NCBI RefSeq assembly: GCF_003002815.1
Contig: NZ_PVTF01000007.1
Span: forward strand, 124,001 to 188,000
Direction: 5' to 3'
From: Umezawaea tangerina
GTDB lineage: Bacteria > Actinomycetota > Actinomycetes > Mycobacteriales > Pseudonocardiaceae
DNA length: 64,000 nt
The translations under genes and the position numbers were made by a program. The stretch's first letter is position 1. Each line of letters begins with the position of its first letter. Shown piece after piece: positions 1,334 through 50,179 of the stretch. Below the pieces are notes generated by a model. The model did no database searches, was not told the origin of the DNA, and saw only the letters and a list, made by a program, of their open reading frames with translations.

Positions 1334-2677
1334 TTGTTGACCCGCTTCACCACGACCGATCCGTGGGTGTTGGCCGCAGGGCTGCCGCTCGTCGTCGTCC
1401 TCCTGGTGCTGCTGGTCCGCCAAAGACACGTCACGACCGTGCAGCGGCAGCGCACCCTGGCCGCCGAGCTGGGCATCTCGATGCGCGAGGAGGAGCTGGC
1501 GCACCTCGTCGACAGCCGGCTGCCCGCGGAGGTCGACCGCGCGGGCGGCGCCGACGTCGAGGTGCCCGCCGCGCGCCACCCGCAGCTGAGGGGCACCCGG
1601 TTCGGGGACCTGTGCCAGGCGCTGCTCGTGATGGCGGGCACCTACGAGACCGACGCCCACAAGCGCTCCAGCGACGAGGCCAAGGAGACGGTGCGGGGGA
1701 TGGCCGCCGCCGTGCAGAGCCTGGCCGCGGAGCAGCAGGTCGCGGTGTCCGGCATGCAGGACCAGCACAACGACCCCGCCGTGCTGGAGGGGCTGCTGCG
1801 CATCGACCACGCCAACTCCCAGCTCGGCCGTCGCGCCCAGGCGCTGGCCGTGCTGTGCGGCGCGTGGCCGGGGACGCAGCGCTCCGCCGCCGAGCTGTCC
1901 GACGTCGTGCGCGGCGCGGTCTCGCGCATCCGCGACTACCTGCGCATCGAGGTGCGGGTGGAGCTGCCGGTCGCCGTCGTGGACACCCACGTGGAGCCCG
2001 TGGTGCTGGCGGTCGCGGAGCTGCTGGACAACGCGGCGCGCTCGTCGCAGTCGGGCACGCTGGTGCGGGTCCACGCGGAGCTCGGCCACAACGGCACGTC
2101 GGTCATCATCGACGACGCGGGCGTCGGCATGACCGCCGAGCAGATCGCACGGGCGACCCGGCTGCTGTCCGGCCGCGAACCGGTGGACATCCGCAGGCTG
2201 GGCAACCCGCCGCAGACCGGGTTCGCGGTGTGCGGCGTGCTGGTCGGCAAGTACGGCTTCCAGGTCTCCGTCGACGGGAACTCGCCCTACGGCGGCGTGC
2301 GCGCCGTGCTGTTCCTGCCCAACGCGCTGCTCGTCACGGCCAAGGCGGACGCGCAGGCGCCCGCGGGCCGGACCAGGGCGACGCCCACGTCCCGACCGGA
2401 CCGCGTCGTGCCCGGCACGTCGGCCGCGGCGAACGGCACCACGCCCAACGGGCTGCCCATCCGCCGACGGCACCGCCCGGTGACCGCGAGCGCCCCGACC
2501 CCCAGGGCCCCGTCGGTCCCGTCGGCCCCGAGGCACGAGGTCCGGGACGAACCGCGGACCGCGGAGGAGACGGCGTCGGCCATCAGGTCGTGGCAGCGGG
2601 CCAGCGCGACGGGCATGACCGATCGACCACTCGCCGGGAACCTCGGCGACCAGCCAACGGAGGACCTCCGACCATGA
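1334..2677 (+). CDS. cvnA: Conservon sensor-kinase-like ATPase CvnA
   Basis: First gene of a complete conservon, the actinomycete cluster encoding a membrane complex likened to a G-protein-coupled sensor. The 447-residue product has one N-terminal membrane segment (about 11-27), a linker with a degenerate dimerisation helix (LRIDHANSQLGRR near 155-167) and a C-terminal HATPase domain with N-box ELLDNAARSS (229-238) and G-box DDAGVGM (260-266). A proline-rich tail follows. No canonical HisKA phospho-histidine motif is evident. TTG at 1334 is preferred because AAGGG (1323-1327) lies six bases upstream; TTG at 1337 is also possible, and the nearby ATG (1329) is out of frame and ends after three codons. 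The stop overlaps cvnB (ATGA). Confidence 0.88.
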   Translation: MLTRFTTTDPWVLAAGLPLVVVLLVLLVRQRHVTTVQRQRTLAAELGISMREEELAHLVDSRLPAEVDRAGGADVEVPAARHPQLRGTRFGDLCQALLVMAGTYETDAHKRSSDEAKETVRGMAAAVQSLAAEQQVAVSGMQDQHNDPAVLEGLLRIDHANSQLGRRAQALAVLCGAWPGTQRSAAELSDVVRGAVSRIRDYLRIEVRVELPVAVVDTHVEPVVLAVAELLDNAARSSQSGTLVRVHAELGHNGTSVIIDDAGVGMTAEQIARATRLLSGREPVDIRRLGNPPQTGFAVCGVLVGKYGFQVSVDGNSPYGGVRAVLFLPNALLVTAKADAQAPAGRTRATPTSRPDRVVPGTSAAANGTTPNGLPIRRRHRPVTASAPTPRAPSVPSAPRHEVRDEPRTAEETASAIRSWQRASATGMTDRPLAGNLGDQPTEDLRP

Positions 2678-3093
2678 TGCCCGCCGTGACCGACAACGCC
2701 CTCGGCTGGATGCTCGACCAGGCGCTGCAAGGGGTGCCGCACGCGCTGGACGCGATCCTCTTCTCCACCGACGGACTGCTCATCGCCCACTCCGCGGGCC
2801 TCGGCCGGGACGACGCCGAACCGCTCGCGGCCGGGCTGTCCGCCTCGGCCGCGCTCGCCAGGCAGAACAGCGGCACGCTCGCCGACGGACCGCGGGGGTG
2901 GCGGCAGAGCATCGACGAGTACGAAGGCGGCTACCGGCTGCTCATGGCTGCCGGACCGGGCGCGATGCTCGCCGCCACGGCCAGCACGCGGGTGAACCTG
3001 GGCGAGCTGACCTACCAGCTCCAGAAGCTGGTGCAGAGAGTCGGCAAGGAGCTGACCAGTCCTCCCCGGCAGGACACCGGCAGCCCGTCATGA
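2674..3093 (+). CDS. cvnB: Roadblock/LC7-domain protein CvnB
   Basis: 139-residue Roadblock/LC7 protein, the second component of the conservon. The fold is visible as the helix ALGWMLDQALQGVPHALDAI, followed by the FSTDGLLIAHSAGL strand pair typical of MglB-like partners of small GTPases. In this family the protein acts with the CvnD GTPase, probably as co-GAP or scaffold (family knowledge). Translation is coupled to cvnA by the 4-base ATGA overlap and to cvnC by another; GGAGG at 2659-2663 precedes the start. ATG at 2677 is an alternative start. Confidence 0.92.
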   Translation: MMPAVTDNALGWMLDQALQGVPHALDAILFSTDGLLIAHSAGLGRDDAEPLAAGLSASAALARQNSGTLADGPRGWRQSIDEYEGGYRLLMAAGPGAMLAATASTRVNLGELTYQLQKLVQRVGKELTSPPRQDTGSPS

Positions 3094-45171: not shown

Positions 45172-45846
45172 TCAGTCCTCGACGGGCAGGTTGTCGAGCA
45201 GCCAGTCCACGCTGCGCTGGACGTGCCGGTCGAGCAGCGCGCGGGCCTCGTCGGTCTTGCGGGTGGTCGCGAGCACCATGAGCTCGCGGTCCTCGGCCAG
45301 CGCGTGCTCGGCCATGTCGACGTCCGGGGTGCCCGCCAGCTGCTGGTAGAGCTCGGAGCTGTGCAGCAGCGTCCGCAGGTAGTCCAGCAGCCGAGGGCTG
45401 CCGCAGGCCTCGCCGAGGGCGTTGTGGAAGTCCGCGTGCGCCCGCACCCACTCGTCCGTCGGGCTGCCGTCCTGGTGGAGCTGGGCCGTGTGCTCGAGCA
45501 CGTGGTGGGCGGAGACCACCCGCGCCTCCCACCGCAGGTCGCCCAGGCGCATCGACTTCTCCAGGGCGAGCCCGGCCAGCAGCTGCAGCAGCTCGCCCAG
45601 CTCCAGCAGGTCGGCCCGCGACACCTCGACCACCCGGAACCCGCGGTTGGGCGTGAGCACGGCGAGGCGGTGCTCGACGAGCCTGGTCAGAGCCTCGCGC
45701 AGCACGGACATGCTGACCTGGTACCGGTCGGCGGCGACCTGCAGCCGCAACGGGCTGCCGGGCCGCAGCACACCGCTGAGGATGTCGGCGCGCAGGCCGT
45801 CGTAGACCATCTGCGTCCGGCTGGCCGTGCGGGTGGTCGCGGTCAT
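45172..45846 (-). CDS. GntR-family (FadR/FCD) regulator
   Basis: 224-residue GntR regulator: winged helix (about 8-75; VYDGLRADILSGVLRPGSPLRLQVAADRYQVSMSVLREALTRL) and a helical FCD effector domain (about 90-215). Divergent from an amidohydrolase gene across 267 bases containing an AT-rich perfect palindrome. FCD regulators usually sense a small organic acid or the product of the neighbouring enzyme, so control of the amidohydrolase is a reasonable inference. Confidence 0.92.
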   Translation of the reverse strand: MTATTRTASRTQMVYDGLRADILSGVLRPGSPLRLQVAADRYQVSMSVLREALTRLVEHRLAVLTPNRGFRVVEVSRADLLELGELLQLLAGLALEKSMRLGDLRWEARVVSAHHVLEHTAQLHQDGSPTDEWVRAHADFHNALGEACGSPRLLDYLRTLLHSSELYQQLAGTPDVDMAEHALAEDRELMVLATTRKTDEARALLDRHVQRSVDWLLDNLPVED

Positions 45847-45985: not shown

Positions 45986-46113
45986 CCTTGCCTTGACGAC
46001 AGGTTCGCGATGTCATGGACCGGCGTTCGACAGAGGTGGGACGGCGGTGGGCGAGCCCGGTGCGCGGGCGGCCGCGACGCCGCCGGCCCGCACACGACAC
46101 CGGAAGAGGAACG

Positions 46114-47475
46114 ATGAACCTCGCTGACAGCTCGGTCCCGGAGCGGTGGAGCACGGGGCGGACGGTGGTGCTCGGCAACGTCCACGTGATCAGCATGGAC
46201 AGCCGGGTCGGTGACTTCGTCGGGGACGTCGTCATCGAGGGCGACACCATCCGCGACCTCGGGCCCGGCGCGGGCGCCGACCGACCCGACGACGCGCTGG
46301 TGGTCGACGCCGGTGGCGCGATCGCGATCCCCGGCCTGGTCGACAGCCACGTGCACGCCTGGGAGGGGGCGCTGCGCGGGGTGTCGCCCGACAGCGACTT
46401 CATGTCCTACATGGCGCTCACCCACTCGACGCTGGGCCCGCTGATGAGTCCCGAGGACGTCGCCGTCGGGCAGGCCCTCACCGCCGCGCGGGCCCTCGAC
46501 CAGGGCGTGACCACGATCGTCGACAACAACCACAACGTCCGCTCGCGGGAGCACGCGCACGCCGCCCTCACGGCGCTGCGCGACGCGGGCGTCCGCACGG
46601 TCTTCGCCGCCGGGGTCGGGATGGGCCAGCCCGACGGGCACCTCCTCCCGCTGCTGCTGGAGCTGCGCTCCGCTCACGACGACGACATGACCCGGATCCG
46701 GCTGATGCAGGCCTTCCCCACGCTGGACGGCTGGAAGTTCGCGGTCGAGCACGGCTTCGGCGCGGTCGCGGAGTTCGGCACCTGGCTGGACGACCTCGAC
46801 GGCTACCTCACCAGCGGCCTGCTCGGCCCGTCGTTCACGCTCGACCACTGCGCCGGGCTGTCGGCCGAGCAGTGGTCCCGCGTCGCCGACTCCGGCGCGG
46901 CGGTCGCGCTCGCGCCGCGCTCGGACCCGCACTACGGGTTCGCCGCGGCGGCACCGGTCCTGCAGGCCGACCGGGTGGGCGTCCAGGTCGGGCTGAGCAG
47001 CGACAACGAGTTCGAGTACGGCTCGCACCTGTTCGAGGAGATGCGCCAGCTGATGAGCGCGCAGCGCGGCGCGGCCGCCGCGGCGACGCAGGCGGGCGAG
47101 CAGGACGTGCCGCGGCCCTGGGGAGTGCGCGACGCGCTGCGCGCGGCCACCGTCGGGGGAGCGCTCGCGGCCGGGCTGCCGGGCCGCGTCGGCGTGCTCG
47201 CGCCCGGCGCGAAGGCGGACCTGGTGCTGCTGGGCACCGACCGCCTGCGCCCCATCACCTCCGAGCTGGGCGCGGCGGTGAGCTACGCGACCGTCCGGGA
47301 CGTCACCGCGGTGGTGGTCGACGGCCGCCCGCGCAAGTGGGCGGGGGAGCTCGTGGGCGTCGACTGGGCCGACCTGGTGCGGCGGGGCGAGGACAGCCGC
47401 GACCGGCTGCTGGCGAGGATCGGCCACTCGGTCGAGGACCTGCGGTTCGCGGGCGAGCTGGTGCTCGGCGGCTGA
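46114..47475 (+). CDS. Amidohydrolase (TrzA/AtzA-like)
   Basis: 453-residue metal-dependent amidohydrolase with a composite beta-sandwich and TIM barrel. HxH metal motif is H79-V-H81 in DSHVHAWEG; further barrel residues are in LDHCAGLS and GLSSDNEFEYG. The ending GALAAGLPGRVGVLAPGAKADLVLLG is typical of the cytosine deaminase/chlorohydrolase branch. It hydrolyses a C-N or C-Cl bond in a ring-type substrate. GAGG precedes ATG 46114. Likely controlled by the divergent GntR protein. Confidence 0.92.
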   Translation: MNLADSSVPERWSTGRTVVLGNVHVISMDSRVGDFVGDVVIEGDTIRDLGPGAGADRPDDALVVDAGGAIAIPGLVDSHVHAWEGALRGVSPDSDFMSYMALTHSTLGPLMSPEDVAVGQALTAARALDQGVTTIVDNNHNVRSREHAHAALTALRDAGVRTVFAAGVGMGQPDGHLLPLLLELRSAHDDDMTRIRLMQAFPTLDGWKFAVEHGFGAVAEFGTWLDDLDGYLTSGLLGPSFTLDHCAGLSAEQWSRVADSGAAVALAPRSDPHYGFAAAAPVLQADRVGVQVGLSSDNEFEYGSHLFEEMRQLMSAQRGAAAAATQAGEQDVPRPWGVRDALRAATVGGALAAGLPGRVGVLAPGAKADLVLLGTDRLRPITSELGAAVSYATVRDVTAVVVDGRPRKWAGELVGVDWADLVRRGEDSRDRLLARIGHSVEDLRFAGELVLGG

Positions 47476-47494
47476 GGGGTCCGCCGGTCACCGC

Positions 47495-47523
47495 GACCAC
47501 GACGGCCGCCGGTCGTCGTGGTC
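47495..47523. terminator. Bidirectional terminator
   Basis: GACCACGACG (47495-47504) pairs with CGTCGTGGTC (47514-47523), a 10-bp stem with a 9-base loop. It sits between the convergent amidohydrolase and small membrane protein genes and reaches into the latter's stop codon. Confidence 0.7.
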
Positions 47524-47755
47524 ACGGCCCGGCGAACCGGAGCAGGCCCAGTCCGACGGCCGCGGTCGCCGCGGAGACTGCGAGCAGCCACGGCGCCGCC
47601 CGGCGCCAGGCCGCGATCCGGCGGGCGTCGCGGGGGCGCAGCGGGCCGCCCTCGGCGAGGCGGCACGCCAGGAGGAAGACGAGCAGGCCCGCGACGGCCG
47701 CCAGTCCGGACCACGTGAGCGCCGAGCCCACCTGCGTCGGGGTCGTGCCGTCCAC
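47522..47755 (-). CDS. 77-residue two-span membrane protein downstream of a B12 riboswitch
   Basis: 77 residues with two hydrophobic helices, about 12-32 (ALTWSGLAAVAGLLVFLLACRL) and 53-72 (WLLAVSAATAAVGLGLL), joined by a basic loop (RPRDARRIAAWRRA). I do not recognise a family. It is not the histidine-tailed CbtB or any known B12 transporter subunit. GTG 47755 has GAGGAG five bases upstream. It is the first gene after the cobalamin riboswitch on the same strand (about 104 bases), so it is expected to be repressed by B12. That context suggests a role in cobalt or corrinoid uptake, or in a B12-independent bypass; this is inference only. Confidence 0.75.
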   Translation of the reverse strand: MDGTTPTQVGSALTWSGLAAVAGLLVFLLACRLAEGGPLRPRDARRIAAWRRAAPWLLAVSAATAAVGLGLLRFAGP

Positions 47756-47859
47756 CGCTGCTCCTCGTCCGCGGTCACCGGAGACCGAGGACGGCAGCGC
47801 ACCAGTGCGCGGCAGCCCACCCGAGAGGCTCCGGACCAGCGCACGCCGAACGACGTGCG

Positions 47860-48048
47860 CACCGGTGGCAGGTCTTCGGACTCGCGGGCGTCGTGCTCGT
47901 GCCTACTGGCCGTCGCTTCCCGGACTCGCGTCCAGTGCTCGTTGACGGCGGTCGTTCCCGCTCACCGCTGCGGGGCAGTCCCGGAGTCGCACCGGGTTCC
48001 CTCTTGCCTCACCCGCCCCGAGGGGCGGGTGAACCACCAGCACCGGTG
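47860..48048 (-). promoter_or_regulatory. Cobalamin (B12) riboswitch
   Basis: Reverse-strand RNA element with the conserved cobalamin core. Reading 5' to 3': CACCGGTG (P1 strand, about 48048-48041), the GC-rich hairpin CACCCGCCCC/GGGGCGGGTG, then AGAGGGAACCCGGTGCGACT, CCGGGACTGCCCCGCAGCGG, a variable region, and AGTCCGAAGACCTGCCACCGG closing P1 (about 47882-47861). The order and the invariant GGGAA, GGTG, CTGCCCCGCA and GAAGACCTGCC pieces match the family closely. The regulated gene is the small membrane protein at 47755-47522. A GCGCA/TGCGC hairpin between them could be part of the expression platform. Confidence 0.9.
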
Positions 48049-48070
48049 ATCGTAGTCGTACGGCCGGGCG

Positions 48071-49003
48071 CTACCCGTTGGCGGCGGCCGCCCGCTCCCG
48101 GACGACCGCCAGCCCCGCGGCGTGCCCGACGACGGGCGCGTACCCGAGCTCGGACACGGCCTTGTCCGTCCGCAGGGTGCAGTCCTGCCCGAGGAACCAC
48201 CTCGCGGGCACGGGGATCTCGCGGTCGGCGGTGCCCGCGTCCAGGTCGGGGATCGGCGTGTCGACGCCGTGGATCCCGAACAGGGTCTCCAGGAACTCGC
48301 GGAGCACGACGCGGTGCCGGTCGGTGACGAAGTAGGCCTGGCCGGGTCGGCCCCGCCGCCACCCGAGCACCAGGCCCTCGACGGCGTTGTCGACGAACGT
48401 GACGTCGGTGGTGTGCCGACCGCCCTCGATCCAGGCGAACCGCCCGGCCTTGGCCGCGGCCACCAGCCCGTCGACGAGAATGCTCTCCGGACCCCAGACG
48501 AACCTCGGGCGGATCGACACGGTGGTGAACCCCGGCGCGTTCGCGTCGAGCACGATCCGCTCGGCCGCGGCCTTCGTCGCGGAGTACGCGGCCGCCGAGT
48601 CCGGCCGCAGCGGCGCGGTCTCGTCGACCTCCAGCAGCGGGTCACCCGCCAGGAGCGCGGCCTCGCTTCCGCAGTGGACGAACCGGGGTACCCCGGCCTG
48701 CCTGGCCGCGTCCACGGCGGCCCTGGTGCCGCCGACCGTCACGAGCTCGTGCCGCGCGCGGTCGGCGTCGATGTCGGTCTCGGCGGCGAGGTGGAAGACC
48801 ACGTCGTGCCCCGTGACCGCGTGGCGCCACGTGGCCGGGTCGGTCAGCTCCCCGCGCACGGGGTCCGCGCCGAGTGCCGCCACCTTCTCCGCCGCCGCGT
48901 CCCCGCGCACCAGGACGCGGACCTGGTGCCCTTCGGCCAGCAGCCTGCGGACCAGCGCCCGGCCGATGAACCCCGAACCACCTGTGACGAACGCCCGTGC
49001 CAT
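48071..49003 (-). CDS. NAD-dependent epimerase/dehydratase (3-beta-HSD-like)
   Basis: 310-residue extended SDR. Rossmann motif AFVTGGSGFIGRALVRRLL, DVVFHLAAETDID, and catalytic YSATK (YxxxK) in AAYSATKAAAERIVLDAN. The C-terminal half (TTDVTFVDNAVEGLVLGWRRG) fits the 3-beta-hydroxysteroid dehydrogenase/epimerase branch. Substrate may be a sugar nucleotide, sterol or polyketide; not determinable. Starts at ATG 49003. Its stop is 23 bases before the riboswitch on the same strand, but the riboswitch acts only on RNA downstream of itself. Confidence 0.9.
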   Translation of the reverse strand: MARAFVTGGSGFIGRALVRRLLAEGHQVRVLVRGDAAAEKVAALGADPVRGELTDPATWRHAVTGHDVVFHLAAETDIDADRARHELVTVGGTRAAVDAARQAGVPRFVHCGSEAALLAGDPLLEVDETAPLRPDSAAAYSATKAAAERIVLDANAPGFTTVSIRPRFVWGPESILVDGLVAAAKAGRFAWIEGGRHTTDVTFVDNAVEGLVLGWRRGRPGQAYFVTDRHRVVLREFLETLFGIHGVDTPIPDLDAGTADREIPVPARWFLGQDCTLRTDKAVSELGYAPVVGHAAGLAVVRERAAAANG

Positions 49004-49121
49004 CCGACTCTCCTTAGCGATGTGCCGTCCTTCGTGGACAACAGCGCCGCGGGCCTCCCGTGGCTTCCCGTCGCGGGCGTCGGAGAACGAAGGGCCGCCA
49101 CAGGTTTCGCGACGGTGTGAG

Positions 49122-50045
49122 TCAGCGCGCGGGCGGGTCGTCCTCGGTGAGCTGCCGCCGCACCCCGCCGGGCACGTGCACCCCGCGGGCGCGCAAGGTG
49201 TCGATGAACCGCGCGGCGAGCGGGTCCGGCGCGGCGGGCGTCACCGCCACGAGCCCGCGGACCCAGCGCGGCGAGAACGACCGGACCGCGCCGGGGAAGC
49301 CCGCGCTGACCGCGCTCACCGGGCACACGGCCACCCCGAGGCCCGCCGCGGCGAGCTGCGGCGCCGCGGTCGTCACCGCCGTCCTCATCACGGGCTCCGC
49401 GCGGACCCCGGCCTTGGCGAGCGCCCGGTCGAGCCAGCCGCTGAGGCCGTTCTCCGGTGCGTAGTGGACGAGCGGCGCGCCCTCGAGGTCGGCGACCCGC
49501 ACCGCGGGCAGGCCCGCCAGCGGGTGGTCGGCGGGCGCCGCCAGCACGATCTCCTCCTCGGCGACGGCCGTGGTCGTGAAGCGGTCGGGGACCGGCGCGG
49601 GCACCAGCGCCACGTCGACCTCGTCGGACTCGACGAGCCCGAGCAGCTCCTCCATCGACGTGGACTCGCGCAGCGCGATCGTCACCTCCGGGTGGCGGCG
49701 GCGCCACTCGCGGATCCCCGGTGCCAGCACCGGCACGCTCAGGCTCTGCGCGCAGGCCAGCCGCAGCACACCGCCGACCGCCTCACCGGCCGCCCGCGCC
49801 GACCTCACCGCGGCCGCCGACGCCTCGATCGCCCGCCTCGCGTCCGCCACCGCGGCCCGCCCGGCCGGGGTCAGCGTCACACCCCGCGCCTCGCGGCGGA
49901 GCAGCGGTGTCCTCGTCTCGCGCTCCAGCGCCGCGAGCTGGTGGGACACCGCGGGCTGCGACAGGTGCAGCAACCGGGCGGCCTGCGTGATCGACCCGGT
50001 GTCGGCGACCGCCACCAGGCACTCCAGCGCGCGGAGGGTAGCCAT
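49122..50045 (-). CDS. LysR-family regulator
   Basis: 307-residue LysR-type regulator with a canonical N terminus (LRALECLVAVADTGSITQAARLLHLSQPAVSHQLAALERETRTPLLRR) and a PBP2 effector domain (about 90-300). It lies 118 bases upstream of the epimerase on the same strand, so it could regulate that gene or belong to the same transcript. The 134-base spacer ahead of it contains GGGTATCGACCC, which is only partly symmetric. Confidence 0.92.
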   Translation of the reverse strand: MATLRALECLVAVADTGSITQAARLLHLSQPAVSHQLAALERETRTPLLRREARGVTLTPAGRAAVADARRAIEASAAAVRSARAAGEAVGGVLRLACAQSLSVPVLAPGIREWRRRHPEVTIALRESTSMEELLGLVESDEVDVALVPAPVPDRFTTTAVAEEEIVLAAPADHPLAGLPAVRVADLEGAPLVHYAPENGLSGWLDRALAKAGVRAEPVMRTAVTTAAPQLAAAGLGVAVCPVSAVSAGFPGAVRSFSPRWVRGLVAVTPAAPDPLAARFIDTLRARGVHVPGGVRRQLTEDDPPAR

Positions 50046-50179
50046 TCGGGCAGTTTATCGGTCCGGCCTGGGGTATCGACCCTGTCGAGGGGTCGTGTGG
50101 GCGTTCCGCGGGGGGTGAAGGAACGACCGGCGCGGTACGGGGGAACCGGCTCCCGGCCACGACGCGGGACACCAGGCGG

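Follow-up and report, generated by a model that had tools for sequence, protein, structure and literature searches.

In Umezawaea tangerina a cobalamin riboswitch of metE/nrdA type lies directly ahead of a gene for a 77-residue membrane protein, and the probable explanation is that a promoter-riboswitch module was joined by rearrangement to this unrelated two-span gene. The module should bind cobalamin and lower expression of the gene, whose product would be no dedicated B12 or cobalt protein. The analysis started from a stretch of 64,000 nucleotides, here called the window, and the features concerned are as follows.

46015-47475, forward strand: amidohydrolase gene that converges with the small gene from its far side (Pfam Amidohydro_1)
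47522-47755, reverse strand: gene of the 77-residue two-span membrane protein, GTG start, uncharacterised small family (from the ORF and its homologues)
47761-47766, reverse strand: ribosome-binding site GAGGAG, five bases ahead of the GTG (from the sequence)
47815-47829, reverse strand: post-aptamer hairpin with stem GCC/GGC (from leader alignments, pairing judged by eye)
47850-48053, reverse strand: cobalamin riboswitch aptamer, metE/nrdA-leader type (cmscan RF00174; the nearest sequences are Pseudonocardiaceae metE and nrdA leaders)
48049-48054, reverse strand: -10-like box TACGAT, spaced as in the relatives' leaders (from the TAnnnT comparison)
48071-49003, reverse strand: NAD-dependent epimerase/3-beta-HSD-like gene, directly upstream (Pfam)

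A cmscan of the whole 64-kb window gave one Rfam match at the gathering threshold, RF00174 (Cobalamin) at 48053-47850 on the reverse strand, which scored 95.7 bits (cut-off 31.5, E 1.4e-22) and covered the model at full length (1-189 of 189). The sequence-only reading had claimed a complete cobalamin riboswitch on this strand, and the covariance-model check confirms it; the distance to the small gene, given there as about 104 bases, is 94 bases if measured between the aptamer match and the GTG. The aptamer sits close to the consensus of its group on a short branch (0.067) and shares 78.3-87.6% identity with the aligned metE and nrdA leaders, the nearest of them being L123 ahead of nrdA (87.6%) and L137 ahead of metE (86.7%). 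Its position among these leaders in the aptamer tree was poorly supported, the adjoining nodes having values of 12 and 22. The source genome (G000, 10.7 Mb) holds nine matches to the cobalamin model, six of them over the cut-off, and its three strong riboswitches are the window copy, the cbtB-cbtA leader on contig C9 and the nrdA leader on C16. The three strong riboswitches of the congener G001 are found ahead of cbtBA, nrdA and metE, the latter two genes being confirmed by Pfam.

A MetE search of three genomes of the genus showed an intact protein in G001, only residues 85-188 (79% identity, contig C14) in G000 and no match in G002. The C14 fragment is a metE relic (G000:C14:122208-122640, L119) with a broken cobalamin aptamer directly ahead of it, in a place syntenic with the intact metE of G001. 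The only other MetE-domain match in G000 was weak, 58.6 bits in a distinct MetE-like protein, while the intact G001 MetE scored 487 bits with the same model. The MetH domain of G000 is intact on C22 (324 bits), and a further, incomplete MetH-domain match, interrupted by one stop, is located near the riboswitch-cbtBA locus (G000:C9:431702-432346, L240). Judged by its sequence, the riboswitch of the window represents the metE/nrdA type in intact form, at a place other than that of the native metE. The idea that the native metE leader simply moved is weakened, the native relic being still on C14 and the window aptamer being 78.3% identical to the congeneric (G001) metE leader, which is below the leaders of other genera (up to 87.6%). 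On these identities, the window leader would not be just the displaced native one.

The leader outside the aptamer was compared by means of a 532-base DNA query comprising leader and gene, in which the gene starts at query 299. At E 1e-10 this query matched 266 of 390 family genomes. Among the matches listed, the foreign ones stop at query 187-262 (window 47867-47792) with two exceptions at 153 and 278, many at or just beyond the hairpin (query 229-262, window 47825-47792) and others at the aptamer end, and none reaches into the small gene. According to BLAST of the first ORFs, the best 29 foreign leader loci belong to metE (21), nrdA (7) or neither (1); in this last locus, L150, the gene behind the riboswitch is NicO, a nickel/cobalt transporter by Pfam. 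Of 35 anchored sequences, 30 have a TAnnnT box at similar distance ahead of the aptamer, and the window is one of them; among the five misses, L131, L137, L140 and L151 look like wrong anchors or short sequences and one is cbtB. A scan of the leader for the sigma-70 consensus found no promoter and no -35 to go with TACGAT. The post-aptamer hairpin is common to metE and nrdA leaders, and its stem covaries by eye in relatives (GCC/GGC, GTC/GAC, ACC/GGT). Among anchored leaders (95 of the 124 stretches; 29 were dropped), a CTCGCGAGG-like box at the ribosome site occurs in 38 of 40 for metE, 21 of 32 for nrdA, 3 of 20 for others and 0 of 2 for cbtB. The window leader thus has the TAnnnT box and the hairpin of Pseudonocardiaceae metE/nrdA-type leaders but lacks their start-codon box.

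Between hairpin and ribosome site the metE and nrdA leaders differ among themselves in length and sequence, and because of this variable linker the end of similarity after the hairpin is a hint of a junction and no proof. The missing CTCGCGAGG-like box and the unrelated gene are stronger signs of a junction. A search of 47450-48150 for terminator-like sites gave none, and the linker does not fold significantly (z -1.39). A hairpin at the ribosome site was considered and dropped, as none of the three short pieces folded was significant (z -1.35, -0.43 and -0.63). Termination was likewise set aside as the mechanism: the S. coelicolor metE switch is described as transcriptional, but the same region holds no terminator-like site.

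With metE lost from G000, the start-codon box missing and no -35 or terminator seen, the riboswitch could also be an orphaned relic, deprived of a former metE or nrdA partner and placed ahead of the small gene with no control over it. This we consider rather unlikely, since the leader retains its -10-like box and its hairpin, and since the near-consensus aptamer shares 78.3-87.6% identity with the aligned metE and nrdA leaders, whereas the C14 relic of this genome is at 67.3%. Under the preferred reading, a module joined to the small gene, direct B12 control of this gene is plausible because aptamer, -10-like box and hairpin are intact. The missing start-codon box counts against such direct control, and with neither a terminator-like site nor a significant linker fold, a working control of the gene is putative.

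The targets of related riboswitches were surveyed in a census of 124 stretches from the family and the order, which is no random sample because selection favoured strong riboswitches and those with the greatest similarity to that of the window. For labelling, the first three ORFs were compared by BLAST with one metE, one nrdA and one cbtB reference, each confirmed by Pfam, and the best match was taken; the labels were metE for 40, nrdA for 36 and cbtB for 4 (80 of 124). Among the 44 unlabelled stretches, the window alone has a first ORF of less than 120 codons, bar three cbtBA loci with a hidden cbtB in an overlapping frame (L001, L047 and L048, the last by eye) and one stretch without an ORF (L199). 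Ten labelled stretches have a first ORF this short, namely three cbtB genes (62-68 codons), the short cbtB match L221 and six ORFs that precede metE or nrdA or cover their beginning. Five pairs in the census were identical over the probed 120 bases; L040 and L147 represent one place, and the other four pairs come from different places.

The census also contained other targets. In three family genomes a B12 riboswitch precedes a protein of 279-313 residues with a weak match to DUF364, 'putative heavy-metal chelation' (L062:521-1357 and L067:509-1357, both reverse strand, and L195:366-1304, forward strand). The gene of a PALP-fold, cysteine-synthase-like enzyme is next in L195, with a similar arrangement by eye in L062, and these loci possibly represent a cobalt-chelator pathway. 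Further B12 riboswitches were found ahead of a thioesterase-superfamily gene (L218:1597-2193, reverse strand) and an aldehyde dehydrogenase gene (L200:564-2066, reverse strand), which are to our knowledge unusual targets.

Two Kyte-Doolittle segments, with window peaks of 2.13 and 1.58 and thus a weaker second span, are consistent with the two-span membrane protein that had been predicted for the 77-codon ORF. As had also been stated, the protein matches no known B12 or cobalt gene: nothing in Pfam or NCBIfam was over the cut-off (best E 0.18 and 8.8, respectively). No match was obtained against solved structures or by tblastn against plasmids, and a close-relative scan of named genomes with this protein alone confirmed no locus. 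A first protein search at E 0.1 hit 80 of 150 genomes, for the most part weakly and, as we take it, by chance, and the eight of its loci that were scanned for Rfam families contained none. A three-row profile seeded with small ORFs in G110 and G083 gave, at E 1e-3, 25 rows from 20 of the 390 family genomes, the source genome included. Clear homologues are present in the genus Saccharothrix (g22) and in G333 of genus g8; none was found in the congeners G001 and G002. The alignment A3 comprises 12 rows with hand-chosen starts, the window protein and 11 foreign ones (ten from Saccharothrix and that of G333), and has 8 invariant columns and the core FxxACRxS...ARRIAxWxRxxPW, which the window protein shares. 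Its first row, a Saccharothrix algeriensis member, is 54% identical to the window protein. Over 72 residues the G193 member (g22) does not differ from an S. algeriensis protein, and a scan of named genomes confirmed two homologue loci, both in Saccharothrix. Thirteen rows were kept outside A3: L152, L154, L161, L164, L165 and L176 are remoter with a weak or absent core motif, L162 has a good core and an unclear start, and L166-L171 look by eye like pieces of larger or unrelated proteins. At the DNA level, the window gene starts to resemble the G210 member 8 bases ahead of the GTG, and other members from a point within the gene. On the basis of the homologues, the two predicted spans and the strong ribosome site, the 77-codon ORF is a real coding gene, and since the convergent amidohydrolase gene comes next, no other gene is evident directly behind the riboswitch.

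One Saccharothrix group of homologues starts at the end of a BTAD regulator gene beside a manganese catalase gene (Pfam, one example), and another adjoins an MHYT-domain gene in some members (Pfam on one example). A cobalamin riboswitch was present at none of 18 candidate loci with flanks of about 1.5 kb or less (L152, L154, L161, L162, L164, L165 and L176 included, L166-L171 left out) and at none of three further loci, L177, L178 and L011 (flanks of 6 kb for the first two). The question raised from the sequence, whether homologues also follow B12 riboswitches, is thus answered in the negative for the loci scanned. An Ms_IGR-5 sRNA (RF02471) was observed near the small-protein candidate in G030 (L164:995-1212, reverse strand). 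In G110 a remote small two-span protein (L011:1474-1722, reverse strand; E 3.9e-5 to the 77-residue protein) is encoded directly behind an Nramp metal transporter gene (1729-3054, reverse strand).

This neighbour of the G110 protein, and the fact that 80 of the 124 surveyed riboswitch stretches lead metE, nrdA or cbtB, speak for the proposal of the sequence-only reading that the small protein is a new uptake component, a transporter modulator or a cobalt factor. The proposal was not borne out by the homologues, with riboswitches at 0 of 18 and 0 of 3 loci and with BTAD/Mn-catalase or MHYT genes as the Saccharothrix neighbours. Inspection of A3 by eye moreover gave no metal-binding His/Cys pattern except the single conserved Cys of the ACR motif, and a dedicated B12 function appears improbable.

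The epimerase gene ends 17 bases ahead of the aptamer match on the same strand. At E 1e-60 it is absent from both congeners, G001 and G002, and present in 16 other genomes among the 390 searched. In ten of these 16, no riboswitch was found around it in flanks of 3.3-5.8 kb per side, or 1.3 kb for one flank in G257. When window 47468-50171 was compared with G001 and G002, only the riboswitch matched and, in G002, 111 bases of the LysR gene, and the flanking pieces match several separate places in the congeners; the region around the riboswitch looks like a mosaic. Since the examined relatives of the small gene have no sensor nearby, it was most likely a rearrangement that brought sensor and gene together. 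No intermediate was found, and the rearrangement is for this reason an event that we infer.

On the other side of the small gene its stop (47522) faces that of the amidohydrolase gene (47475), and with no terminator-like site in 47450-48150 a longer antisense transcript under the riboswitch might run into the amidohydrolase gene or on to a GntR gene (45172-45846, reverse strand). We regard this as very improbable, for the suggestion comes from the layout, no conserved supporting element was found and the small gene has its own strong ribosome site.

In the favoured explanation, the rearrangement would have joined a module of -10-like box, full cobalamin aptamer and conserved hairpin to the small membrane-protein gene. 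The module would bind a cobalamin and so lower expression of the downstream gene, by analogy with B12 riboswitches ahead of metE in other actinomycetes, and switching would act on the small gene via the ribosome site or transcription. B12 repression of metE is described in published accounts for Streptomyces coelicolor, there as a transcriptional switch (PMC4365011), and for Mycobacterium tuberculosis (PMC4428469). Such metE leaders with RF00174 have the same aptamer, -10-like box and post-aptamer hairpin as the window leader, whereas the window gene is not metE and its leader is without the start-codon box. The nearest single leader (L123, 87.6%) precedes nrdA, but no ribonucleotide reductase gene is directly behind the window copy, and the nrdA of G000 has its own riboswitch on C16. 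The cbtB-cbtA loci resemble the window in that the first gene encodes a small membrane protein; however, CbtB has 66 residues and is followed by CbtA (G000:C9), while the 77-residue protein does not match CbtB, and its gene is not followed by one for CbtA. Another B12 riboswitch ahead of a protein of unclear role is that of mycobacterial PPE2 (Rv0256c), which, in the M. tuberculosis account, was once proposed as a cobalt transporter and is retained as a riboswitch-regulated gene in other mycobacteria (PMC4428469), whereas the window pairing was seen in one genome. A literature search at title level found no title on the pairing of a riboswitch with this small protein.

An unlikely extension is that, after the loss of metE, the strain recruited a small membrane protein of the family linked to BTAD and Mn-catalase genes into its B12 regulon by capturing a complete promoter-riboswitch module, so that the protein would be made only when cobalamin is scarce. 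If true, this would amount to a riboswitch transplanted by nature onto an unrelated gene. Inferring function from the gene behind a riboswitch can mislead, as an intact B12 riboswitch here precedes a gene whose family, at the loci examined, has no detectable tie to B12. A leader that still functions would be a natural example of the transfer of a ligand-sensing module from one gene to another, and its segment from hairpin to start codon would show which leader parts travel.
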